A DNA stretch of 34,700 nt from Rhodoferax sp. (lineage in GTDB: Bacteria; Pseudomonadota; Gammaproteobacteria; Burkholderiales; Burkholderiaceae_C): positions 1 through 34,700 of the forward strand of contig JAIPCE010000015.1 in assembly GCA_021738345.1 (NCBI GenBank), written 5' to 3'. Both the position numbers and the translations under genes were made by a program. Below are positions 1-15,764 of this stretch, piece by piece. Below the pieces are notes generated by a model. That model saw only the letters and a program-made list of their open reading frames with translations. It did not search any database and was not told the DNA's origin. Each line of letters opens with the position of its first letter. The stretch's first letter is position 1.

Positions 1-292
1 CAAAGATGGGCGTACTGGAGGGATGCAATGCGAGGCGCAAAGCGCGCCGTGCAGCTTGGCTGCACAAGCGGTTTGCAACGACGCAGTGCGCCCGCCAGAA
101 CGTCCAGACTGTTCAAGTTATTGTTGCTCGACTCCTTAGGGTTGCTGGAAGGGGCCTTCCCCCTGCATTGCGAAAAATTAACAGCAAAACAGGCGGTTTC
201 TCTGTCTACTCTCGCATCCGCTTGCCTCTAGACTACGGGTTTGCTCAAGGGCTGGACAGTGCAGGGCCGGCCCATTTTTGGAACGGATTGTC

Positions 293-2041
293 ATGAAAGC
301 CATTGTTATCGGGTTTGTGTCGTGGTGGTGTGCGCTTTTTCTGGTCGCCTGTGGAGGGGCGGCAGAGTCGACCTCGACATCGACCACGACGACCAGTGCG
401 CCTGTGCTGCAGTCGATCAGCATTACCAATACCGCGCCCATCGCGGTGGAGGTGGGCTCTACTTTGCAACTGGTGGCATCGGGAACCTACTCCGATGCGT
501 CCACCAAAACCCTGACTTCGGAGGTGACCTGGGCGGTTGCGGGAAAAAACGCGACCATCAGTGGCGGCTTGCTCAAAGGCGTTCTGGTGGGCGCAGACTC
601 GGTGACCGCAACCTTGGGCAGCATCGTCGGCACGGTGGGGATCACCGTCTCGCCGATTTTGAAATCCCTGGCGGTAAGTCCAATGAAACCGACCATCGAG
701 GTTGGTACCAGTGTTCAGATGACCGCAACCGGTACCTACTCGGACGGCAGCGTTGCCGCCGTGAGCAAGGACCTGACCTGGACTGCCATCGGCACGCCAG
801 TCCAAGTGTCGGTGTCTGCCAGTGGTTTGGTCACAGGATTGGTGGTGGGTGCGGCTAACAGCGTGCAGGCCAAGGTAGGTACCATCACTGGCGCAACCAC
901 GGTAACTGTGAACTATCCCTATGTCACCATGGCTACCGGTGGTAGCCACAGCCTGGTAAGCAAGAAGGATGGTAGCCTACTGGCATGGGGATTGAATCGC
1001 TCGGGTCAGTTAGGTGACGGCACGCTGACCAATCGTACTTCGCCTGTATTGGTTTCGAGTTTGGCGACCAACTGGGCCCAGCTATCTGCAGGCGATTTTC
1101 ATACTCTTGCCACACGCACCGATGGCAGCCTGTGGGCTTGGGGGTTTAACCAAAATGGTCAGCTCGGTGACAAGAGCACGGTCGATAAGTCCATTCCAAC
1201 ACAGGTCGGCACCGACAAGACCTGGACCGCCATTTCCGCTGGAAAGGCACATGGTCTGGCTGTCAAGAAGGATGGGACTTTGTGGGCCTGGGGTCGAAAT
1301 TTTGACAGCCAATTGGGGGACGCCAGCAATGCGGACCGAACGGCGCCGGTGCAGATCTTGGTGACTGCACCCGTGGGAACGACTGCTCCGACAGCCATCG
1401 CTGCCGACAAAAAATGGGCCACTGTGGCGGCAGGCGGGAATTTTTCGGTCGGTCGCCAGCTTGACGGTAGTGTATACACCTGGGGTGGGAACGTATCGGG
1501 GCAATTGGGGCGTGGTACCACCACTGCGGTGGCTATTGCATCCAATGTTCCGATCCCGGTTGTGACAACAGAATTCAGCAAAGCGTCGGCGATAGCTGCC
1601 GGCAACGCCCACGTGTTGGCCATTAGGACGGACAACGTCTTGTTTGCCTGGGGTGACAATTCCAGTGGGCAGCTAGGAAGTGCAGAGCCAACCGTAAGCA
1701 AAGAAAGTTTGGCGCCAATCAAGATTCCTGACGGAGAATGGGTTGCAGTGGCTGCGGGTGCAGCGCATAGTTTGGGCATCACGACGGATGGTCGCCTTTG
1801 GGCGTGGGGCGACAACACCTTTGGGCAGCTTGGAATTAAAACGCAGGCCACCAGCGCACAAACCCCCACTTTGGTGGATGAGGACATAAAAAATTGGGTC
1901 CGGGTATTTGCCGGCAAAAACCATTCCTTCGCCATCAAGACCGACGGCTCGGTATGGGGCTGGGGTAGCAATGCCGAAGGTCAGTTAGGTAACGGCAGCA
2001 CGAGCCCGGCCAAAGTGATGTTACCGACACCACTGAACTGA
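293..2041 (+). CDS. Putative lipoprotein with two Big2-like Ig domains and seven RCC1-type repeats
   Basis: N-terminus MKAIVIGFVSWWCALFLVACGG has a signal peptide and lipobox (LVAC). Two repeated Ig-like blocks (VEVGSTLQLVASGTYSD..., IEVGTSVQMTATGTYSD...). Seven AG..H(S/T)L....DG.L.AWG.N..GQLG repeats. Start chosen at the internal ATG (293). Confidence 0.85.
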   Translation: MKAIVIGFVSWWCALFLVACGGAAESTSTSTTTTSAPVLQSISITNTAPIAVEVGSTLQLVASGTYSDASTKTLTSEVTWAVAGKNATISGGLLKGVLVGADSVTATLGSIVGTVGITVSPILKSLAVSPMKPTIEVGTSVQMTATGTYSDGSVAAVSKDLTWTAIGTPVQVSVSASGLVTGLVVGAANSVQAKVGTITGATTVTVNYPYVTMATGGSHSLVSKKDGSLLAWGLNRSGQLGDGTLTNRTSPVLVSSLATNWAQLSAGDFHTLATRTDGSLWAWGFNQNGQLGDKSTVDKSIPTQVGTDKTWTAISAGKAHGLAVKKDGTLWAWGRNFDSQLGDASNADRTAPVQILVTAPVGTTAPTAIAADKKWATVAAGGNFSVGRQLDGSVYTWGGNVSGQLGRGTTTAVAIASNVPIPVVTTEFSKASAIAAGNAHVLAIRTDNVLFAWGDNSSGQLGSAEPTVSKESLAPIKIPDGEWVAVAAGAAHSLGITTDGRLWAWGDNTFGQLGIKTQATSAQTPTLVDEDIKNWVRVFAGKNHSFAIKTDGSVWGWGSNAEGQLGNGSTSPAKVMLPTPLN

Positions 2042-2307: not shown

Positions 2308-4095
2308 TCACGTCATCAACATGGCGAATTCCTGGGGCGAGATGATCAGCGCACCCAGTTGGCGGGACTGGTCGGCCAAGTCTTGGTCGGCGGTGATCAG
2401 CGCACGTAGGTCCGGCGCGCTTGCACGCGCCAAATGGTCGAGGTGGCCCAGTATTTTGTGGTCGGCGCGGTCGACACCGGTGCCCCCCGAGTAATGGAGC
2501 CGAAAATTGTCCAGCAGGGTCTGGTCCTGGGCCGTGCTGCTGTCAAACCACAATTCTACCGACAGGTGGGGGTAGCTCTTTGCCAGTTTGGTGAGGTGTT
2601 GCACCAGCAACGCGCGTGACGCTGCGCCCGGATCAGCCGTTTCAAAATGGCCTCCAAACAGGTCTGGCAGTTTGAAAATCACGTTGTAGCCGTCCACCAC
2701 CAAGCTGCAATGCTGCCCGTGCGCCAGTTGGCGCTGCAGGTAGTGCAGTGGCAGGCCCGACCAGTTCGTTGTCGCGCCGTCCGATCTTGCCCCCAGGGTG
2801 GTGCGAAAGTACACGCGCGAGACATGGTCGTTGAGCAATGTGTGGGCCGCTTCCAGGTCCTGAGGTTCCAGGAAACCGCTCGCTTCGACCGCCACCAGGC
2901 TGCTGCGCACCTGTGCCAGCTTTTCGAGGGTGTCGGCGCGCTGCAATCGCTCAAGCAAACCGACCGGCAGCGTACGCGCCCGCTGCGGCGTAGTCGATGA
3001 TTGCTGAAGAATTTTCAGAATCTCGCGAATGCGTTGTTCCAGCCGCTCCCGATAGGCGCTTAACTCTGCCAGCGGGCAAAGGGATTCTCTGGCGGCAACC
3101 TGCAGGCGCTCCAACAAATTCTGGTATTGCACAAGCCTGGCCTCCCAGACCGAGCGTAAGCCGTACTTTTGATCGGCGGCGGCCTGGCGTTGCAGCAGGT
3201 CGTGTACCTCCTGTGCCAGGTCAGGCCCGGGTGCGGCATGAAATGCTGCCAGTGCCACGGCTGGCTGCAACCAGGGCAGCAGTCGCGCTTGCAGTTGTTG
3301 CCGCACTGCTGCCTGGGTTTTTTCGGCAAAGCGCACGATCAGCTCGTGGTGTTCGCCCTGCAGGCGTGCCAATGCTGCCGTTTCGCCTGCAAGGCTGGCT
3401 TCCAGATCGCGCGTCTGGCGCCGCAGTTGGTCGCGCTCGGACTGCAGCTCCTGGAGTTCCCGCCGGACTCGGTGCAGCGACTGCCGTTTTTCCCGCAATT
3501 CCAGCATGCGCTCTATCGCATTTCGGTCACGCGGGGGCCGCGCCTGTACACCCTGCGTGGCAGCAGCGGGAGTTTGCAGTCTGGCCGTGTTGGCACTGAC
3601 CTGCCAGATGGGCTCGATCAAATGCTGGGCAAATGTCCGCAAGGTTTGCCGTACTTTGATGATGGCGGCCTCGCGGTCCTGGTCACTGGGCGGTGTGTTG
3701 TTCCACTGCGCTATCCCGTCCCATCCGATCTGACGTACTTCAGGTCGTTCGTCGAGCAGCATGGCGCCGTACAGGTTTACCGGCCCTGCAACGTGGGCCA
3801 GATCGTGGTGAATCTGGTCGATGGCTTCGACCGAGAGCACCTTGAGCAAGGGATTGGCAAGGGTGATGGAGCGAAGAAATTCCAGCAGGTAGGTTGGCAA
3901 GTCGCCGGCATGGTCCAGAGTTGCACTGATGCGCGCGACCGCCACGGCGCGCTGCACCTTGCCCTTGCGAAAGCCAGCGGACACGTGCGGGTGCTGGCTG
4001 GCAAACGCCTGCAATGCCGCGTCTTCGCACGTCTCGATTGCGCGCTTCCACTGCGCTATAACTCGCGAGTCCACCCGTTGATCGTTGATTTTCAT
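2308..4095 (-). CDS. Coiled-coil protein with C-terminal NYN (YacP/PIN-like) putative nuclease domain
   Basis: 595 aa ORF. Central heptad-rich, Gln/Glu/Arg-rich region (RRELQELQSERDQLRRQTRDLEASL). C-terminus SLVVDGYNVIF...ELWFDSS...FRLHYSGGTGVDRADHKILGHL...LITADQDLADQSRQLGALIISPQEF resembles NYN/YacP domains. Confidence 0.7.
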   Translation of the reverse strand: MKINDQRVDSRVIAQWKRAIETCEDAALQAFASQHPHVSAGFRKGKVQRAVAVARISATLDHAGDLPTYLLEFLRSITLANPLLKVLSVEAIDQIHHDLAHVAGPVNLYGAMLLDERPEVRQIGWDGIAQWNNTPPSDQDREAAIIKVRQTLRTFAQHLIEPIWQVSANTARLQTPAAATQGVQARPPRDRNAIERMLELREKRQSLHRVRRELQELQSERDQLRRQTRDLEASLAGETAALARLQGEHHELIVRFAEKTQAAVRQQLQARLLPWLQPAVALAAFHAAPGPDLAQEVHDLLQRQAAADQKYGLRSVWEARLVQYQNLLERLQVAARESLCPLAELSAYRERLEQRIREILKILQQSSTTPQRARTLPVGLLERLQRADTLEKLAQVRSSLVAVEASGFLEPQDLEAAHTLLNDHVSRVYFRTTLGARSDGATTNWSGLPLHYLQRQLAHGQHCSLVVDGYNVIFKLPDLFGGHFETADPGAASRALLVQHLTKLAKSYPHLSVELWFDSSTAQDQTLLDNFRLHYSGGTGVDRADHKILGHLDHLARASAPDLRALITADQDLADQSRQLGALIISPQEFAMLMT

Positions 4096-5324: not shown

Positions 5325-6563
5325 TCAACGCACTAGCTGGTTGAGCTGGATGATGGGCAACAACACCGCCAGCACGATCAGCATCACCACCAGGCCCATG
5401 GCCACAATCAGCAAGGGTTCCAATAGGGTGGCGAGTTGCATGGCGCGGCGCTGCACTTCTGCACTAAGCTGTTTGGCGGCCCGGTCCAGCATCACGGGCA
5501 GTTGACCGGTTTGCTCCCCCAGCCGGGCAAACATGCCTAGCAAACCTGGAAAGCGTTTTTTCTGCCCTAGCGCGACTGCCAGCGGTGCCCCCTCGCGCAC
5601 CAAAACCAACGCATCCAACGCGTCCGTGCGCATGGCCCGGTTGGACAGCGTGTCGGCTGCAGCCTGCAAGGCCTTAAGAATGGGAACACCGGCACTGGCC
5701 AACATGGCCAGCGTGCTGGCAAAACGTGCCCCGTTATAGCCGCGCGCCAGCTTGCCCAGCACCGGCAGGGTCAGCCACATGGCATCAAACTGCTCGCGAA
5801 ACGCCGCACGGGACCAGGCCAGCCGAGCTGCTACGCCCGCAAACGCCAACCCGATCAGCATCAGCCAGCCCTGATTCCGAACAAAGTTACCGATGCCCAG
5901 CATGACCACGGTCAACAGCGGCAGTGCCCGTTTGCTGCCAGCAAACACGGTTGCGACCTGTGGCACCACATAGGCCAACAAAAAGGTCACGATGACGATG
6001 GCGACCAGCGTAACAATGGCCGGGTACATGGCTGCGCCTATCAGTTGCGACTTGAGTGCCTGGCTTTGCTCCAGATCATCGGCCAGACGCTCCAGTACCA
6101 TGCCCAGATTGCCGCTGTGTTCGCCGGCACCGACCACAGCGCAGTAAGTGACCGAAAATTCGCGCGGATGTTGCGCCAGCGCTGCCGCAAAAGCGGTGCC
6201 TCCATTGACCTCCGAGCGCAGGTTGGATACCAAATGGCGCTGACGCTCATCATCGGATTCGTCCGCCAGTGCCGTCAAGGCACGCTCCAGCGGCAGGCCT
6301 GAGGCCACAAGTCCGGCAACCTGGCGAGTCCAGATGGCCAGCGCGCTAGGGCTGTAAACACGGCCCTCAAAGAACCGAATGTTTTTACTGGTTGTAGCAC
6401 CACCCTGGGCGCCCGAGGTGCCGGACCCGACCGCCTCGACGCTGAGCGGCACCAGGCTTTGTGCACGTAGCAGGCCACGGGCCGCGCGCGCGGTGTCGGC
6501 ATCGATGATGCCCTTGCGGCTTTCGCCGTCGGCGCTCAGTGCTTCAAATGCGTAGGCAGGCAT
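5325..6563 (-). CDS. gspF: Type II secretion system inner membrane protein GspF
   Basis: MPAYAFEALSADGESRKGIIDADTARAARGLLRAQSLVPL...; T2SF domains with SGLPLERAL and SAGVPILKALQ; last gene of the gsp series. Confidence 0.95.
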   Translation of the reverse strand: MPAYAFEALSADGESRKGIIDADTARAARGLLRAQSLVPLSVEAVGSGTSGAQGGATTSKNIRFFEGRVYSPSALAIWTRQVAGLVASGLPLERALTALADESDDERQRHLVSNLRSEVNGGTAFAAALAQHPREFSVTYCAVVGAGEHSGNLGMVLERLADDLEQSQALKSQLIGAAMYPAIVTLVAIVIVTFLLAYVVPQVATVFAGSKRALPLLTVVMLGIGNFVRNQGWLMLIGLAFAGVAARLAWSRAAFREQFDAMWLTLPVLGKLARGYNGARFASTLAMLASAGVPILKALQAAADTLSNRAMRTDALDALVLVREGAPLAVALGQKKRFPGLLGMFARLGEQTGQLPVMLDRAAKQLSAEVQRRAMQLATLLEPLLIVAMGLVVMLIVLAVLLPIIQLNQLVR

Positions 6564-6589
6564 GGCAAATCTCGTGAAGGCACAACGGC

Positions 6590-7990
6590 TCAGTCGCGCG
6601 TGACCCGCAGCAGTTCCTCGCGCGAGGTCACACCGCCTTGCACCAGCCGCTCGCCATCGTCGCGCATCAGGGTCATGCCGCCTTGCAGGGCGGCAGCACG
6701 AATATCGGCCTCGGATGCCTGGTGGTGAATCTGTTCACGAATGGCGTCGGTCGTGACCAACAACTCAAATACGCCGGTGCGTCCCTGGTAGCCGGTTTGT
6801 CCACATTCGCTGCAACCTGCCCCCTTGCAATGGGTGCACAGTTTGCGCACCAGGCGCTGGGCCAGCACGCCCAACAACGACGAACTCAGCAAAAAGGGCT
6901 CCACCCCCATGTCCATCAGGCGGGTCACGGTACTGGGCGCATCGTTGGTGTGCACTGTAGCGAGCACCAGGTGGCCGGTCAGGGAGGCCTGGATTGCAAT
7001 TTGCGCCGTTTCAAAATCGCGAATTTCACCGATCATGATGATGTCCGGATCCTGCCGCAGAATCGCACGCAAAGCCTTGGCAAACGTGAGGTCAATCTTC
7101 GGGTTGACCTGGGTTTGCCCCACGCCGGCTAGCTCGTATTCAATGGGGTCTTCGACCGTCATGATGTTCTGGCCCCGGGTGTCGAGCCGCTCCAACGCCG
7201 CGTACAGCGTGGTGGTCTTGCCCGAACCCGTGGGACCGGTCACCAGGATGATGCCGTGCGGTTGCGTCACCAGATGTTCGAAGCGCGACAGCACATGGCC
7301 CTGCATGCCAACCGACTCCAGGCTGAGTTTTGCACCGCTTTTGTCAAGCAGACGCAGCACGGCGCGCTCGCCATGGGCACTGGGTAAGGTGCTCACGCGC
7401 ACATCGACCGCGCGCGTCCCAATGCGCAGGCTGATGCGACCGTCCTGTGGCAGGCGCTTTTCGGCAATGTCGAGCTCAGCCATAATTTTCAGGCGCGAAA
7501 TCAGGGCGGCGTGCAGTGCGCGATTGGGCTGCACCACATCGCGCAAGGAGCCGTCGACCCGAAAGCGCACGCTGGAGTGGCGCTCATAGGGCTCGATGTG
7601 GATATCGCTGGCCCCATCGCGGGCGGCCTGCGTGAGCAGAGCGTTGAGCATGCGGATGATGGGGGCATCGTCCGAGGTTTCCAGCAGGTCCTCGATCGCT
7701 GGCAGGGCCTGCATCATGCGCGACAGGTCGATATCGCTCTCGACTTCACTGACCACGGTGGCTGCGCTCGACTCGCTTTGTGCGTAGGCCGCACTTACGC
7801 GCTGGCGCAGTGCATCCGCAGACTCAAGCCGAATGTCATGCAAGGCAAATTTGCGCATGACTTCGCTGACGCCGTCGGCGTCAGCGCCCGAAGGCATCCA
7901 AAGTGTCAGCTCGCCGGCAATGTCCTCGAGCAGCAGGTTGTAGCTGCGGGCAAAGCCGTAGGGCAGCGGGTAGTGCATCGCTTGCGCCAT
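6590..7990 (-). CDS. gspE: Type II secretion system ATPase GspE
   Basis: Walker [37 protein letters not shown], tetracysteine [13 protein letters not shown]. Confidence 0.97.
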
Positions 7991-7992
7991 TG

Positions 7993-10059
7993 CTATTTGC
8001 CCATGGCTGGCAAGATGGGTGCCTCGTCGATGGGCACCATAGGGTTGGCGGTGGGTTGCGCCCGCTGCTGTGTGCTACGCATCTGCTCGTAGCGGTCGGC
8101 TGAATACGACTGGGCAGAGGCTGCGTCTCGCACCACCACCGGGCGTAAAAAGACCATCAGATTGGTTTTTTTGCGGCTTCTTGACTCGGACTTGAACAGG
8201 TAGCCTAGCAGCGGCACGTCGCCTAGCCCGGGCACCTTGTCTTCGTTGCCGGCGTACTCGTCTGACAGCAGGCCGCCGAGCACCACCACCGCACCGTCGT
8301 TGACCAGTACATTGGATTCGATCGAGCGTTTGTTGGTGATCAAGCCCGAGGCTGAGTTGATGGAGGAGGCCTGCACACTCGACACTTCCTGAAAAATCGT
8401 GAGCTTGACCGTGCCGTTTTCGCTGATCTGCGGCTTGACACGCAAGGTCAGTCCCACGTCCTTACGCTCAATGGTCTGGAACGGGTTCACGGTATTGGCC
8501 GTGCCGGCCGCCGCGTTGGTGTACTGGCCCGTGACAAACGGCACGTTTTGACCGATCACAATCTTTGCCTCTTCATTGTCCAGGGTCAGCAGATTTGGCG
8601 TGGACAGAATGTTGCCATCGCCATTGGTTTGCAGGTACTGCGCCAGAAAACCCAGCACATAGACTCCGTTGGATTGGTGTGCCACGCCCGCGTTCATGCC
8701 CTTGCTGGGCACCACGGCACCGGTTGCCGCCTGTGTTGCGAGGGCAATGATGTTGGCACCGGCGGTACCAAAATTGGTGCCGAGCAACCCGATGTTGCTG
8801 TCTCCGTTGTTGCCCAATGCGCCTTGCCACTGGATGCCAAATTGGGCCGCCTTGTCGGCATTGACCTCGGCAATCAGGCTTTCTACATAGACCTGGGCAC
8901 GGCGCGCGTCAAGCTTGTCGATGACGGCGCGCAGTTGCCGGTACTGGGGTTCAGGTGCGCTGATGATGAGGGAATTGGTGGCAGGATCGGCCTGAATTTG
9001 GCCACCAGTACTGGGTTGGGCAGCGGCGGCCGCCGCGTTGGCAGCGGCTCCCCCTGGGGCACTGCCCACTGCAGCACCCGCAGTCGGGCTGCGTACCTCA
9101 CCCGACAATGCGGCGCGCAAGGTGACCGCAAGTTTGGTGGCATCCGCGTTCTTCAGGTAAACCACGTGGATGTTGCCGGCATCAGTGAGTGCTGCAGGCC
9201 GGTCCAGCTTCTCGATCAGGGACCGGGCAAGGGCCATGCGCGCTGCATTTGCGGCACGCAAAATCAGGGCGTTGCTACGGGGTTCGGCAATCACCGTGGT
9301 CTTGAATGACCCGTCGCCTTGTCCGGCAGCAGCAGTACTGCTCGATTCCAGCAGGCGCACCACCAACGGTGCCAGGTCCACCGCGATCGCATGGGTGACG
9401 GGAATCACTTCGATGTCGGTGGCATTGGAGACGTCCATGGCGGCAATGATCTGGGCAATGCGGCGCAGGTTATCCCCGTAATCGGTAATCACCAGAGCGT
9501 TTTGGCCCTGGTTGACATTGATCGTGTTGTTGGGGCTGATCAAGGGTCGCAGAATGGGCAGCAGATTGTTCGCGTTATCGAATTTCAGCTTGAAAACCTG
9601 GGTGGCAATCTGGTTGCCCGCGACCATTTCGTTGGAAAACACACCGCCCCCCTGGAGCTTGGCGTCAGCTTCGGGCACGATCTTGTCGAGTCCGGCGGCG
9701 TCGACCACGGTATAGCCTTGCAGGCGCAGCATGGCAAGAAACTGACTGTAGGCCACCGCCGGGGATACCGGCTTTTCAGTGGTGAGCGTGATTGTGCCCT
9801 TGACCCTCGGATCAACGACCACATTGCGGCCGGTCAGTGTGGCCATGGCGCGTGCCACGGCCTCAATTTCTGCACCTGTGAAGTTCAAGGTGATCGGTTC
9901 GCCGCGCTTGGGCGCTGGTTTGACTGGCACCGTGGCTGCGATGGGTGTCGATTCTTGGGCTATGGAGGCAAAGGGCAGACAACCAAACCCGACCCACACC
10001 GCACAGGCAGTCAGAGTGGCAACAGCAGATAGGGGGGAATGCTTGAAAGAATATTGCAT
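7993..10059 (-). CDS. gspD: Type II secretion system secretin GspD
   Basis: Signal peptide, N0/N-domain repeats (ITLNFTGAEIEAVARAMATLTGRNVVVDPRVKG), secretin core VPFVTGQYTN...VVVLGGLLSDEY...VPGLGDVPLLGYLFKS. Confidence 0.97.
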   Translation of the reverse strand: MQYSFKHSPLSAVATLTACAVWVGFGCLPFASIAQESTPIAATVPVKPAPKRGEPITLNFTGAEIEAVARAMATLTGRNVVVDPRVKGTITLTTEKPVSPAVAYSQFLAMLRLQGYTVVDAAGLDKIVPEADAKLQGGGVFSNEMVAGNQIATQVFKLKFDNANNLLPILRPLISPNNTINVNQGQNALVITDYGDNLRRIAQIIAAMDVSNATDIEVIPVTHAIAVDLAPLVVRLLESSSTAAAGQGDGSFKTTVIAEPRSNALILRAANAARMALARSLIEKLDRPAALTDAGNIHVVYLKNADATKLAVTLRAALSGEVRSPTAGAAVGSAPGGAAANAAAAAAQPSTGGQIQADPATNSLIISAPEPQYRQLRAVIDKLDARRAQVYVESLIAEVNADKAAQFGIQWQGALGNNGDSNIGLLGTNFGTAGANIIALATQAATGAVVPSKGMNAGVAHQSNGVYVLGFLAQYLQTNGDGNILSTPNLLTLDNEEAKIVIGQNVPFVTGQYTNAAAGTANTVNPFQTIERKDVGLTLRVKPQISENGTVKLTIFQEVSSVQASSINSASGLITNKRSIESNVLVNDGAVVVLGGLLSDEYAGNEDKVPGLGDVPLLGYLFKSESRSRKKTNLMVFLRPVVVRDAASAQSYSADRYEQMRSTQQRAQPTANPMVPIDEAPILPAMGK

Positions 10060-10076
10060 GCGGCGTGCCTTTGTGG

Positions 10077-10877
10077 TTAGCCCACTTTGATGATCGACCG
10101 CGCGCCTTCGCGCCGGCCAATGATGTTGAGAAGATTCGACAATGCTTCGATCCGTTGGGGCTCGGCGGTGGCAATGCCTTCAAACCGCAGGCTCTGCCCC
10201 AACCACACCCCGCTGCCAGACAATTGCAGACTGCCAGACAGGGTTTCAAGCCGGAGTTGGGTGGTTTGACCACCGGTCAGGGTGAACCGGTAGCTGCCCA
10301 TGGGTTGCAGCGTCGACAAACGCGAGGAAATATCATTGGCGTCCAGTTGCAGGCTGCCACCGATGTGCACGCGGCCACGCACCCACTCCAGGGTCAACTG
10401 CTGGCTTGACAGGTCCAGTTGACCCAGGGCACGCACCGTGTTCCAGGGTGTGCCCAAACCGGCAAGTAAACTCGCAGGCCAGCGCGAAGGGCTGTCAGCC
10501 AAGACCATGCGCACGCCACCTAATCCCAGAGGTTCAACGTGCAACTGCATGGCCTGAGGAGTACAACATTCTGCGCGAAACTCAAGCGACAGGGCACCCC
10601 AGCGGGGTTGCAGGCGCCACTGCACGCTGCCCGGTAGCACCACAGCATCGCGACTTCCCGCACCGCCCGACAAGACCAATTGGGCCGACCCTTGCCACAC
10701 GGTGCCGCGCGCCTGGACCAACTCGACTTGCAGGTTGCTCGCGTTGCGCAATGCCGCAGCAAGCCAGCGTGCCGGTGCGAACAGCAAGACGCCGGCCAGC
10801 ACACCGATCAACAGCCCTGCTGCGGCCCAGCCCCAGGGGCAATAATGCGCCGACGAATTTCTGTGCTGTATGGCCAT
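10077..10877 (-). CDS. gspN: Type II secretion system protein GspN
   Basis: 266 aa, single N-terminal TM, LVQARGTVWQGSAQLVLSGG, position between gspM and gspD. Confidence 0.85.
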   Translation of the reverse strand: MAIQHRNSSAHYCPWGWAAAGLLIGVLAGVLLFAPARWLAAALRNASNLQVELVQARGTVWQGSAQLVLSGGAGSRDAVVLPGSVQWRLQPRWGALSLEFRAECCTPQAMQLHVEPLGLGGVRMVLADSPSRWPASLLAGLGTPWNTVRALGQLDLSSQQLTLEWVRGRVHIGGSLQLDANDISSRLSTLQPMGSYRFTLTGGQTTQLRLETLSGSLQLSGSGVWLGQSLRFEGIATAEPQRIEALSNLLNIIGRREGARSIIKVG

Positions 10878-11377
10878 TAGCGCTGTGGCAAGCCCATAAA
10901 CACGGTGCCGCTCCAGGTCGTTGCACCATTGGCAGTCAAGCTGGTCAGGCGCACCTCTTGTGGCAGTGATTTCGCGTTCAACCGGGCCTGTGTCAGCCAG
11001 CGCGCCAGGCTATCGGCACTGGCGGCTTTGAGGGTGACCTTGGCCCGATCGGCGACGACCGTCATTTCGGCGCTCGTGCCCAGTGTCTGACGCGTCGCCT
11101 GCGTCAAGCTACGAACGGCCTCGTCCAGGCTCAAGGGTGGCTGCGCCTGCAAGGCCTGGGCTTGTTTTTGCAGTGTCAGCATCTGTTGAATCTGTGTGTC
11201 TAACGCCCGGCCCTGGAGGTCAGCAGTACGTAAGGTGCTGAGCGCGGGCGCGAGCAAGAGTTGCCAACACGCGGCTGCCAGCACCAGTGTTGCGGCAAGC
11301 CAAATCGCGGTCCTTTCACGCGAACCGAGGGCGCTCCAGCGCTTGTGCAGGGGGTCAAGGCGCGGCAGCAAAGTCAT
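10877..11377 (-). CDS. gspM: Type II secretion system protein GspM
   Basis: 166 aa, N-terminal TM, position between gspL and gspN, overlapping junctions. Confidence 0.85.
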   Translation of the reverse strand: MTLLPRLDPLHKRWSALGSRERTAIWLAATLVLAAACWQLLLAPALSTLRTADLQGRALDTQIQQMLTLQKQAQALQAQPPLSLDEAVRSLTQATRQTLGTSAEMTVVADRAKVTLKAASADSLARWLTQARLNAKSLPQEVRLTSLTANGATTWSGTVFMGLPQR

Positions 11378-12615
11378 GGTTGGCGCTCCAGTTGCAGGGT
11401 TAAGGTGTCACCATCCATGCGCGCCCGGTAACGCAATCCTTCCAGCTTGGCGGTGATGCGGGCACGCTGCGCTGCCTCCGGGTTCAAACCCTTGAGCTTG
11501 AGTTCGCCGTCTGCAAACTCGATGGCCGTGGGTAGCGGCATGCCGGAGGACATGGAGTAATACTGCACCAGCATGGTTTCAAGGTCAGCGCCGGTGACCG
11601 CACCGTTTTGACGCTGCAAATCAGCCACCGAGCGCGCCATTTGCAGTGGCGCGTCCACCACCACCCGTACCTCAGGGAACGTGGAGGTCAGCAGTTGCCG
11701 AACACTCATGCGTTTGGCTGCCAGGGAAGACTGCTCACTCCAGTTCCACAGTGCAATGCCCGATAGGTTCACCAGCAAGAGCGCGAGCGCCATCCAGCGT
11801 GCGGCGCGCCAGCGCGGCGCCGACAACAAGGTAGCAAAAAAGTGCGAAATCTTCTTGCGCGAGCGCGCGCTGCGGCTCGCGGAGCAATCGAATTGCGCCA
11901 GGTCCCACTCGGACTGCGCTGCGGCGAGAAATCTTTGCGCATTACTTTGCAGCGTCACACGCCCCTCAAAGTGCTGCTCGGCCAGCTCGGCCACTGCGGG
12001 CTCGGCCCATACCTGCGCGGGGCCCTCGCCCGCGCCGTTCACAAGTGCCATCGCTGCGGCTCCATAGGGCAGCAGCCAGACTCCGTGCGGTCCGCTATAG
12101 ATTATCTGGGTCGAGGCTGAAGTCCCGGTGAAATACAGCGCACTGGCACCAGCGTGCGGCTCGGCGGGTGGCGCCACTTCCGGGACGATGCGCACCGCTG
12201 AATGGCCGCTTTGTTCCATCGCGGCGAGCCACGCGTGCAGCCAGGCACGATCGCAAACTGCAACCCACATCGGCGCACCGGTTCGGGCCATCGGTGCAAT
12301 TGCAAAATGCAACTGTGCAGGTTCGTCCAGCACCCGATCTTCCAGCAGACCGTCCAACACCGAGCGTAAGCGCGCACCATCCCCCTCCTGAAACAGCTTT
12401 TTGTCCAGGGTTCCGCGTGGCAGCTCCAGTGCATGCCAGGACAACTTGCTTGCGGGCACTACCGCCACCACTTCCGATCCCTCGGAGGGGGGAAGCAGCG
12501 CCAAGGGCACCTCGACGTGGCGACTCACCAGGGTGCCGTCATGGGACAGCACGGCCACGGCGGACGCTGCAGCGGTGGGAGATGACGGGGGCAGGGTTAG
12601 GGTCAGGGTGCGCAT
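11374..12615 (-). CDS. gspL: Type II secretion system protein GspL
   Basis: 413 aa; cytoplasmic actin-like portion (VVAVVPASKLSWHALELPRG), TM at WRAARWMALALLLVNLSGIALWNW, position upstream of gspM. Confidence 0.88.
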   Translation of the reverse strand: MRTLTLTLPPSSPTAAASAVAVLSHDGTLVSRHVEVPLALLPPSEGSEVVAVVPASKLSWHALELPRGTLDKKLFQEGDGARLRSVLDGLLEDRVLDEPAQLHFAIAPMARTGAPMWVAVCDRAWLHAWLAAMEQSGHSAVRIVPEVAPPAEPHAGASALYFTGTSASTQIIYSGPHGVWLLPYGAAAMALVNGAGEGPAQVWAEPAVAELAEQHFEGRVTLQSNAQRFLAAAQSEWDLAQFDCSASRSARSRKKISHFFATLLSAPRWRAARWMALALLLVNLSGIALWNWSEQSSLAAKRMSVRQLLTSTFPEVRVVVDAPLQMARSVADLQRQNGAVTGADLETMLVQYYSMSSGMPLPTAIEFADGELKLKGLNPEAAQRARITAKLEGLRYRARMDGDTLTLQLERQP

Positions 12616-12676
12616 GCGGGGCTAGTGGACGGGCTATTTTCTGTGGGTGCCCAACGGGTCAGAGCAAGTTCTTGTG

Positions 12677-13648
12677 TCATTTTAGAGGCTTCGCGGGCTC
12701 CCACTCGGGGCCACCGTCTTTCCACAGCGTGACAACCGCCATTGCGTCGCGCTGCAGCACACTGCGTTGCTCCACGATAACCTGGTCCTGGCGCAAGATG
12801 CCATGGACTTCAAAAAAGCGCGAAACGACACTGTGCTGGGCGTCTACAAGCTGGCTGGGCGGATCCCCAACCAGCTTGGCTGCATCGCCGAGCGTGCGAA
12901 AGTGGCTGGTTTGACGTGCACTCACCATGCGCTGCGCCAAGGCCATATCCGCCGATGCGATGCAGGCGTAGAGCACCAGGGCATCGGCGGTGTTGAGGTT
13001 GACCGGAGTGGCGACCGGCAGCAAGGTGATGTAGGGTTGCAGCAGTGCCATGCTGCGCGCTGACAAGCCCAGCCACCCCAGTTGACTGAGGCGCTGGGGC
13101 ATCAGGGGGGAGAGCGGTGAGGATCGGTTGTCGGGGCTGGTATCGAGTGCAAAGCGCAAATTTTCGGCCAGGGCTGTCAGTTCCGACACCGGGAGCTGCA
13201 GCTTTTCAAACAACTTTGCGAATGCCTGGTAGGCAGGCTCGGACACCCTGCCGCTGTCGACCAGATTGCGCAGGTTCAGGCGGCTTTGCAGGTCGGTAAT
13301 CCGGCCCGACAAAAAGGTCTCTGTCATGCTGTCGGCATCCACCGGGCTGCTCTTGTCGGTCGCCAAAAACGTCGACAGCCGAGCCTCTTCGAGCGGCACT
13401 GACCAGGGTTCCGCGAGGTGGTCGGCGCCACCCGAGCGGGCATCTTCGCGCAGAATCAGGCGTGCCCAGTCCAGTGCCCCGGTCAGCACCCATTGGGCCT
13501 GAATCCGGGTCCGTTCGGCAGATTCGATTTCAACACTGCGCCACTGTTGCCACAGAGATGCAGCGGCCAGACTGGCTACCAGCGCAACGGTCAACATGGC
13601 GGTGAGCAGCGCCGCACCGCGTTGCCTACGCGCAGTTTGTGGCCTCAA
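12677..13648 (-). CDS. gspK: Type II secretion system minor pseudopilin GspK
   Basis: RQRGAALLTAMLTVALVASLAAASLWQQWRSVEIE prepilin-like N-terminus; FLSGRITDLQSRLNLRNLVD; VNLNTADALVLYA. Confidence 0.92.
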   Translation of the reverse strand: MRPQTARRQRGAALLTAMLTVALVASLAAASLWQQWRSVEIESAERTRIQAQWVLTGALDWARLILREDARSGGADHLAEPWSVPLEEARLSTFLATDKSSPVDADSMTETFLSGRITDLQSRLNLRNLVDSGRVSEPAYQAFAKLFEKLQLPVSELTALAENLRFALDTSPDNRSSPLSPLMPQRLSQLGWLGLSARSMALLQPYITLLPVATPVNLNTADALVLYACIASADMALAQRMVSARQTSHFRTLGDAAKLVGDPPSQLVDAQHSVVSRFFEVHGILRQDQVIVEQRSVLQRDAMAVVTLWKDGGPEWEPAKPLK

Positions 13649-14322
13649 GATTTCCCGCCTCCCACCGTTGGCCGAATCCAGTCGCGCGTCAATTGGCCAC
13701 CGATGGCACCCCCCTCGGGCAAGGTCAGCACCAATCGAACGCCGTCGGGCAGCACGGCACCGGCGGTGGTGCTTAGCGGCGCGACGCCAGGGATCACCGT
13801 GTTGCCCTCGCTGGACAGCGGGTTACTCCAGGCGTTGCCGCGAAAATAAAAAACGGACCACTGGTCCAGCGGTGCCAGGCGCACTTCCAGTTTACGTTCT
13901 TCGTCGCCCGGGTTTTGCGCCCATTGCGCGGCCCGTGCCCAGGCGGAATCCAGTTCCCCGCGTGTCTTGAGTGGTGGTGACTGCCACCGCAGCCAGTGGC
14001 CGGTGCCATCCAGGCTACGGCGGGTCCAGGCGACTACCAGCATGCCGCCCTCAGGTGCTGCCGTATTGCGGCGGCTGATGCGCAGTGCCCGGCCATCCCA
14101 GTCCTGCGCCGGGGTTTGCGGCAATTGCACCATGGCGTCGAGATCAGCCCCCCATTGTGATAGGCCGGCCTGCAAGGTCAGGGCCATATCGGTACGCACC
14201 CGGACTTGCTCTTGTGTGCGCACCATGCCGTCGAGTCCGCGCCAGCTCAAACCGGCCATCACGGCCATGACCCCCAGTGCCACAAGGAGCTCAATCAGCG
14301 TGAAACCGGCCAATTTGCGCAT
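13645..14322 (-). CDS. gspJ: Type II secretion system minor pseudopilin GspJ
   Basis: MRKLAGFTLIELLVALGVMAVMAGLSWRGLDGM prepilin leader and GspJ motif. Confidence 0.93.
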   Translation of the reverse strand: MRKLAGFTLIELLVALGVMAVMAGLSWRGLDGMVRTQEQVRVRTDMALTLQAGLSQWGADLDAMVQLPQTPAQDWDGRALRISRRNTAAPEGGMLVVAWTRRSLDGTGHWLRWQSPPLKTRGELDSAWARAAQWAQNPGDEERKLEVRLAPLDQWSVFYFRGNAWSNPLSSEGNTVIPGVAPLSTTAGAVLPDGVRLVLTLPEGGAIGGQLTRDWIRPTVGGGKS

Positions 14323-14684
14323 CAGTAACGTCCGACGACCGTGGCGATGGATAGCATGGGGGATTCACCTTCCAAGACCTGTGCTTCTACCCGCATGAAG
14401 TTGGGGTTGGGGGTGGCCGCTACCGCCAGCCGCACCTCAAACATCCGTCCGGCTTGCTCGCAGGGACGGGTGTTTTCGCCGACTGCGGGCATCTGCTTGG
14501 CAAGTCGTACGCCGATCAGCGCGTTTTCGGCACAGAGGTGGGCCAGCATCTGATCGGTTTGACGTCCTGCATTGAGAGTCAGCGAAGCGCTGGCCCTGGC
14601 CCCGGCCGCCAGGGCCAGCGCCACGATGCCCAAGGCCACCAGCACTTCAATCAAGGTAAAACCGCGCAAGGCAAAGGATTTCAT
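14322..14684 (-). CDS. gspI: Type II secretion system minor pseudopilin GspI
   Basis: MKSFALRGFTLIEVLVALGIVALALAAGARA; start set at the ATG next to the prepilin leader (the track ORF extends to 14792). Confidence 0.9.
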   Translation of the reverse strand: MKSFALRGFTLIEVLVALGIVALALAAGARASASLTLNAGRQTDQMLAHLCAENALIGVRLAKQMPAVGENTRPCEQAGRMFEVRLAVAATPNPNFMRVEAQVLEGESPMLSIATVVGRY

Positions 14685-14788
14685 TGGGATGTGTCCGAAT
14701 CCGCTGCGAAACCGAAGGTGGACGTTGAGCCAATTCGGTCTTTGAAAATGCTGGCTTGCGTCGCTGCGTACGAAATGGCGGGGTCCAT

Positions 14789-15220
14789 TCATGGAAAAGT
14801 CTTGGCCTCTTCGTCAGCAAATACGGCAAAAGGGTGGACCCCGTCGGTGGCAAGTGTCAACCGCCGAGACGGGTCTGACACCGAAACCAGTACAATTTTT
14901 TGCGGGCCAATGATGGGCTCCGGTCCCAGCAACACATCGCCCTCCCTATTGGAGCGTACGTCGCTGCTTAACCAATGCGTAGGAAGTGTCGTGCCCGGCA
15001 GCCCGTCAAATTCGAAACCGCCCGCGGTGACGCGCCAGCGCACCGGACTCGCGCTCATGCGGGACTGCGCACGCCCCGACTCCAGCAAGGCGGTCAGCCG
15101 CAAAGCCTCTCGTTCCAAAGCCACCGAGGCTCCGTCCCGCAGCGCCATCACCACCCCCGCCGTCGCCACCGCCATGATCGCCAACACCACCAGCAACTCA
15201 ATCAAGGTAAACCCGCGCAC
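14789..15220 (-). CDS. gspH: Type II secretion system minor pseudopilin GspH (GTG start proposed)
   Basis: RGFTLIELLVVLAIMAVATAGVVMALRDG prepilin leader. The nearest in-frame start is GTG at 15220; the track ATG (15415) would give an implausibly long leader crossing a repeat. Confidence 0.8.
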   Translation of the reverse strand: MRGFTLIELLVVLAIMAVATAGVVMALRDGASVALEREALRLTALLESGRAQSRMSASPVRWRVTAGGFEFDGLPGTTLPTHWLSSDVRSNREGDVLLGPEPIIGPQKIVLVSVSDPSRRLTLATDGVHPFAVFADEEAKTFP

Positions 15221-15225
15221 CCTTA

Positions 15226-15322
15226 GCGTGGGGGCTATGGTTTCACCGCCGGGCCGCCCCAAGGTGAAACGCGCCGCCTCGGGGGGCAGCGCAGCACACG
15301 AAGTGGCAAGCGTGGGGGCTAT
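15226..15322. repeat. REP-like element at the gspG/gspH junction
   Basis: 13 bp direct repeat GCGTGGGGGCTAT at 15226-15238 and 15310-15322, enclosing the inverted repeat GTTTCACC (15240-15247)/GGTGAAAC (15263-15270). Confidence 0.8.
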
Positions 15323-15323
15323 A

Positions 15324-15764
15324 TCACTCCCAACTGCCAATATCCGCATTCTTGCCTTCACCGCCGGCTTGACCATCGGCACCAAAAGAGAGCACATCGA
15401 CTTCGGCTTTGACACCCGGATTCATGTACTGATAGGGGCGGCCCCAGGGGTCGTTGGGAAGTTTGTCGAGGTAGGACTTCCAGTTGGAGGGCACTGGACT
15501 CGTGGTGGGCTTGGTGAGCAAGGCCTGCAAGCCCTGTGCTGCCGTGGGGAATCGTTGGTTGTCGAGCTTGTAGAGCTTGAGCGCCTGCATCAGGTTGTTG
15601 ACGTCGGTACGGGCGGCTGTCACCCGGGCATCGTCGGCACGGTCCAGCACATTGGGCACCACCAGCGCGGCGAGCACGCCAATAATGACCAGAACCACCA
15701 TCAACTCGATCAGGGTAAAACCTCTGGCAAGGTGACTGTGCATGCGGCTGGCGGAATGGGGCAT
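15324..15764 (-). CDS. gspG: Type II secretion system major pseudopilin GspG
   Basis: RGFTLIELMVVLVIIGVLAALVVPNVLDRADDARVTAARTDVNNLMQALKLYKLDN...DPWGRPYQYMNPG; start at 15764 (or 15743). Confidence 0.95.
   Translation of the reverse strand: MPHSASRMHSHLARGFTLIELMVVLVIIGVLAALVVPNVLDRADDARVTAARTDVNNLMQALKLYKLDNQRFPTAAQGLQALLTKPTTSPVPSNWKSYLDKLPNDPWGRPYQYMNPGVKAEVDVLSFGADGQAGGEGKNADIGSWE

Follow-up and report, generated by a model that had tools for sequence, protein, structure and literature searches.

A gene of 595 codons encodes a predicted endoribonuclease of the NYN/YacP class, in which the nuclease domain sits at the C-terminal end of a large protein that is rare, evolves rapidly and has an N-terminal domain without a solved counterpart. 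The whole architecture is real and heritable, and the family is rare and patchily distributed; the gene is accessory and was probably acquired horizontally. Our preferred reading, to which we give a probability of roughly 0.4, is that the protein is a metal-dependent endoribonuclease held on a coiled-coil stalk with an N-terminal sensor, serving as a conditional effector against phages or mobile elements.

The gene and the parts of its product

The open reading frame runs on the minus strand from an ATG at 4095 to a stop at 2308 of the window (the whole stretch of DNA that was analysed, 34,700 nucleotides). Host-like codon usage (score 91 in a simple gene model), together with ten full-length homologues, indicates that this frame, reported in the initial annotation at 2308-4095, is a gene and not a chance occurrence. 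As its GC content is also host-like (61.7%, versus 59.4% for the window), recent transfer is not visible. Neither a second full-length copy nor other NYN_YacP genes were found in the same genome, and promoter and terminator scans gave results no better than shuffles. The features are as follows, residue numbers referring to the protein.

2308..4095, minus strand: whole gene, 595 aa, multidomain NYN_YacP protein (open reading frame; Pfam PF05991; 10 full-length homologues)
3622..4095, minus strand: N-terminal all-helical domain, residues 1-158 (pLDDT 92.4, pTM 0.85; no PDB fold match)
Around residues 112-121, minus strand: conserved LLLDxRxxVR motif in the N-terminal domain (family alignment)
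G41, L74, S88, G104, D115, R117 and R121: invariant residues of the N-terminal domain (11 sequences)
3523..3621, minus strand: disordered, poorly conserved linker, residues 159-191 (pLDDT below 50; 22% identity)
3244..3522, minus strand: long helix, residues 192-284, with coiled-coil periodicity over about 192-260 (AlphaFold2; 3.5-residue period)
Residues 271-276: conserved RLxPWL motif at the end of the long helix (R271, L272, W275 and L276 invariant)
2761..3243, minus strand: second helical region, residues 285-445 (AlphaFold2 helices)
Residues 300-312: conserved LLxxQAxxDxxYG motif in the second helical region (L301, Q304, D308 and G312 invariant)
2311..2760, minus strand: C-terminal NYN/YacP-like RNase domain, residues 446-595 (Pfam 465-592; Foldseek 5mq9; 44% mean identity)
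2692..2694, minus strand: putative catalytic D468, VDGYN motif (invariant 11/11)
2542..2544, minus strand: putative catalytic or structural D518, WFD motif (invariant 11/11)
2461..2463, minus strand: putative catalytic D545, SGGxGxxRAD motif (invariant 11/11)
2386..2388, minus strand: putative catalytic D570, TAD motif (invariant 11/11)

The sole Pfam domain above its curated cut-off (24.6 bits) is NYN_YacP, PF05991, which matches residues 465-592 with 28.7 bits and scored 31.5 bits in the genome search. The match covers positions 1-125 of the 166 in the model and the chain stops three residues later, so the C-terminal tail of Rae1 is absent. In the AlphaFold2 model residues 449-595 form an alpha/beta domain, and the best PDB match found by Foldseek is Bacillus subtilis Rae1/YacP (5mq9; E 9.7e-4, probability 1.00, TM (target) 0.61), which supplies the two top matches of the whole model, with only one match below E 0.001. 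This domain is the best-conserved part of the protein, and D468, D518, D545 and D570 are shared without exception by the 11 full-length sequences, which are 25-77% identical. An RNase fold of the C-terminal domain is thus well supported by structure prediction. The initial annotation had proposed a NYN/YacP-like domain with acidic residues arranged as in NYN/PIN-like RNases, and had made this depend on the predicted fold and on conservation of the acidic residues; the fold is NYN-like and the cluster is conserved. Within the TADQDLADQ stretch that it singled out, D570 holds, while D572 and D576 are not invariant.

An alignment of the 11 family sequences served as input for the model (mean pLDDT 76.6, pTM 0.34), the low pTM being expected from loosely connected parts. 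Residues 1-158 form a helical domain in it, followed by a disordered linker, a long helix (192-284), helices up to about residue 435 and the alpha/beta domain. The N-terminal region, previously noted as helical and uncharacterised, is confidently predicted, when modelled alone, as a compact, all-helical domain with 33% mean identity in the family, and a fold search of it against the PDB gave no counterpart (best E 1.7); a HEAT-like character of its LLLDxRxxVR motif is only an impression. The linker that follows has the lowest mean pairwise identity in the protein.

The long central coiled coil described earlier holds for part of its length. Residues 192-284 are predicted as one continuous helix, and family-averaged hydrophobicity has a period of about 3.5 residues over 192-250 and 200-260 (p about 0.002-0.003). 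Over the full helix the period is not significant, whether in the family average (p 0.09) or in the single sequence, and residues 285-445 form further helices and not one coiled coil.

The fusion is as unusual as first supposed, a YacP-type domain ending a larger helical protein, and no characterised family with the whole architecture was found in Pfam, NCBIfam, PADLOC, the PDB or a literature search. Matches to LmuB, PbeC, JetC and SMC in PADLOC and NCBIfam were weak and limited to the helical middle, and were set aside as coiled-coil noise. PADLOC-DB 2.0.0 gave no defence-family match beyond the coiled coil, and a profile search of PDB sequences returned coiled coils only.

Distribution and rate of change

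Ten full-length homologues, 27-36% identical to the window protein over the whole length, were identified in nine other genomes: one each in G168, G1053, G190, G406, G1356, G377, G1274 and G1275, and two in G052, whose copies are unlike, being about 40% identical to each other. Within the genus the gene was found in one of 100 genomes, i.e. in none of the 99 others, and in the same taxonomic family in 5 of 401 genomes including its own (about 1%). Two other families of the order have it in 3 of 98 genomes and, full-length, in 2 of 74. A phylum sample of 399 genomes yielded none besides its own. About three candidates were scored per genome in the largest searches, and so distant family members can be missed in these counts. 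A search with the NYN domain only, in 258 genomes of the phylum, gave nothing credible; a weak match in G592 was rejected, its NYN reading frame not being credible. Two further forms, in G217 and G440, consist of the NYN domain only and look shortened or decayed. No homologue was found in collections of plasmids, phages and viral contigs, nor beside the orthologous 5'-nucleotidase (85-90% identical) of six congeners. A search of named genomes with single-sequence patterns, which reach close relatives only, found an ordinary Olsenella YacP alone and not the full architecture. The family tree gives no resolved position for the window copy.

Between the closest copies dN/dS is about 0.2-0.35, which shows that purifying selection maintains the gene. 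At the locus shared by G406 and G1356, where flanking gene order is conserved, the NYN protein is 78% identical, versus 92-100% for the flanking proteins, and its gene changes about twice as fast (dN/dS 0.23 versus 0.00-0.13). Its dS is also higher (0.57 versus 0.08-0.37), so that allele replacement fits as well as faster evolution; faster change than in the neighbours can also mean weaker constraint. At the G1274/G1275 locus the NYN gene lies at the fast end, but some neighbours are as fast.

Gene neighbourhoods

In the window, the gene runs in the same direction as a 5'-nucleotidase gene and a cluster of type II secretion genes, and converges on an RCC1-repeat gene. No CRISPR-like repeat array was found in the window, and those neighbours of the gene that are annotated have housekeeping functions, within a view limited by the contig end, 2.3 kb past the gene. 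The RCC1-repeat gene (278-2041, plus strand) encodes a probable secreted lipoprotein with seven RCC1 repeats and Big_2 Ig-like domains, which, lying near the secretion cluster, is possibly a substrate of it. The cluster itself (5325-15415, minus strand; gspF, E, D, likely N to H) stands between the 5'-nucleotidase gene and ilvA. As these two are directly adjacent in the congeners G963, G1001 and G976, it appears to have been inserted here or lost there.

Most copies of the family, including that of the window, lie among housekeeping or metabolic genes and not in defence islands, and no consistent gene partner was found across loci. Three copies have other contexts: those of G190 and G377, and the G052:C9 copy. 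The G190 homologue lies about 165 bases upstream of brxA, in the same direction, at the head of a type I BREX cluster that is complete, in the order BrxA, BrxB, BrxC (1597 bits), PglX (1580 bits), PtuA-like ATPase, PglZ and BrxL; the PtuA-like gene occupies L050:14700-15671, between pglX and pglZ. Placement by chance is unlikely, for what is a single case among 11 copies, noticed post hoc. No BREX genes were seen beside the window copy or the other nine. Type I BREX clusters with embedded accessory genes offer the parallel for a homologue placed first, before brxA; such a gene belongs to no BREX definition, and a literature search on NYN proteins with BREX or phage defence gave nothing relevant beyond a CRISPR-associated NYN.

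In G377 the homologue comes third in a set of genes on one strand, after a UvrD-like helicase gene with Nhi/AbiO/GajB-like matches and a 415-aa gene without a known match. The set is compositionally deviant, with lower GC than its surroundings. The helicase gene overlaps the 415-aa gene by 8 bases (L023:363-2790), directly before the NYN homologue, and the three are possibly an undescribed three-gene system; no homologue of the 415-aa partner was found in plasmids. The G052:C9 copy is divergent from a WYL regulator gene and two dynamin-like GTPase genes (L010:897-9882), the latter with weak LeoA matches.

Relation to known nucleases and possible role

The known RNases of the YacP/Rae1 type are small proteins. 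Of 14 control genomes, only those of Bacillus subtilis and Synechococcus gave a match to the NYN_YacP family, and the Olsenella YacP (179 aa) adjoins an rlmB-like methyltransferase gene. The window protein shares with Rae1/YacP (5mq9) the NYN_YacP domain, the PIN-like fold and the DGYN...FD...AD...TxD acidic pattern. However, Rae1/YacP is small and stand-alone (a 166-position model), whereas the window protein carries about 445 extra residues N-terminally and is without the last 40 or so positions of the model, and its gene lies beside those of an RCC1-repeat protein and a 5'-nucleotidase and not in an rlmB neighbourhood. Given these differences in size, C-terminal tail and neighbourhood, the protein is no orthologue of Rae1 and should not bear its name, although the chemistry by which it cuts RNA may be the same.

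An immune link exists for another member of the NYN superfamily, the RNase of a type III CRISPR locus in Bacteroides fragilis, which is active, is dead as a D13A mutant, and has three conserved aspartates of which one was shown to be essential (PMC11346440, in its excerpted text). Equivalence with the aspartates of the window protein is by motif order only. Unlike the window protein, the B. fragilis enzyme is not described with a coiled coil or N-terminal domain in those excerpts, and unlike that enzyme the window gene has no cas gene or CRISPR array seen nearby; the two probably belong to different NYN branches.

Under the preferred reading, the catalytic domain (446-595) would be held by the helical and coiled-coil stalk, which probably dimerises and would so place two NYN domains, and the N-terminal helical domain would sense a signal or bind a partner and thereby control the nuclease. 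The scaffolded or multimeric RNase that the initial annotation suggested would be of this kind. RNA would be cut once a phage or other invading element is sensed, the effector acting by itself or supplementing other defence systems. Somewhat more tentatively, the family may be a new one of single-gene defence RNases, built of helical sensor, coiled coil and YacP-type NYN domain, which is sometimes added to a BREX or helicase cluster. Were this role correct, the YacP branch of NYN nucleases would join the RNA-cutting defence enzymes as a simple single-gene system open to testing, and the BREX-linked homologue would allow direct experiment.

An immune effector, at the probability given above, is the single most likely role in view of the sparse distribution, the divergent copies, the fast change and the one embedded BREX position. 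The NYN_YacP score, the Rae1-like fold, the accessory distribution, the two unlike G052 copies, the faster evolution at the G406/G1356 locus and the defence contexts of G190 (BREX), G377 (helicase) and G052:C9 (WYL, dynamin-like) support it, and the invariant aspartates are in line with the conserved cluster of an active NYN RNase (PMC11346440, excerpted text). Counting against it are the host-like GC, the lack of homologues in the phages, plasmids and viral contigs searched, PADLOC matches that are only weak coiled-coil ones, and a complete defence system adjoining just one of 11 copies, seen after the fact; the fast change may be weaker constraint, some G1274/G1275 neighbours being as fast. 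The setting of most copies, that of the window included, among housekeeping genes also counts against an immune effector, and these lone genes favour instead a non-immune, translation-linked RNase, whose stalk and N-terminal domain would dock on ribosomes or another RNA machine for mRNA to be cut in normally growing or stressed cells. The nearest fold is indeed that of Rae1/YacP, an RNase of ribosome-dependent mRNA decay (as cited in the excerpts of PMC11346440). Since a translation-linked housekeeping role should be widely kept, and the gene occurs in about 1% of related genomes in a form without the Rae1 tail, we regard this alternative as rather unlikely.

The other main rival, which we place just behind it, is a general accessory nuclease of RNA processing or regulation that drifts between genomes, with a role in neither defence nor at the ribosome. 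Purifying selection (dN/dS about 0.2-0.35) with no consistent gene partner across loci would suit such an enzyme, but the first-gene position in the BREX cluster and the rapid turnover would be left unexplained. A catalytically dead NYN domain that serves as an RNA-binding scaffold is highly improbable, as all four acidic residues stay unchanged among sequences of 25-77% identity, in the best-conserved part of the protein.

A minor observation concerns two loci of the family: genes of SRAP/YedK type, 55% identical to each other, are found close to the homologues of G168 and G190 (L012:8947-9645 and L013:13781-14446).
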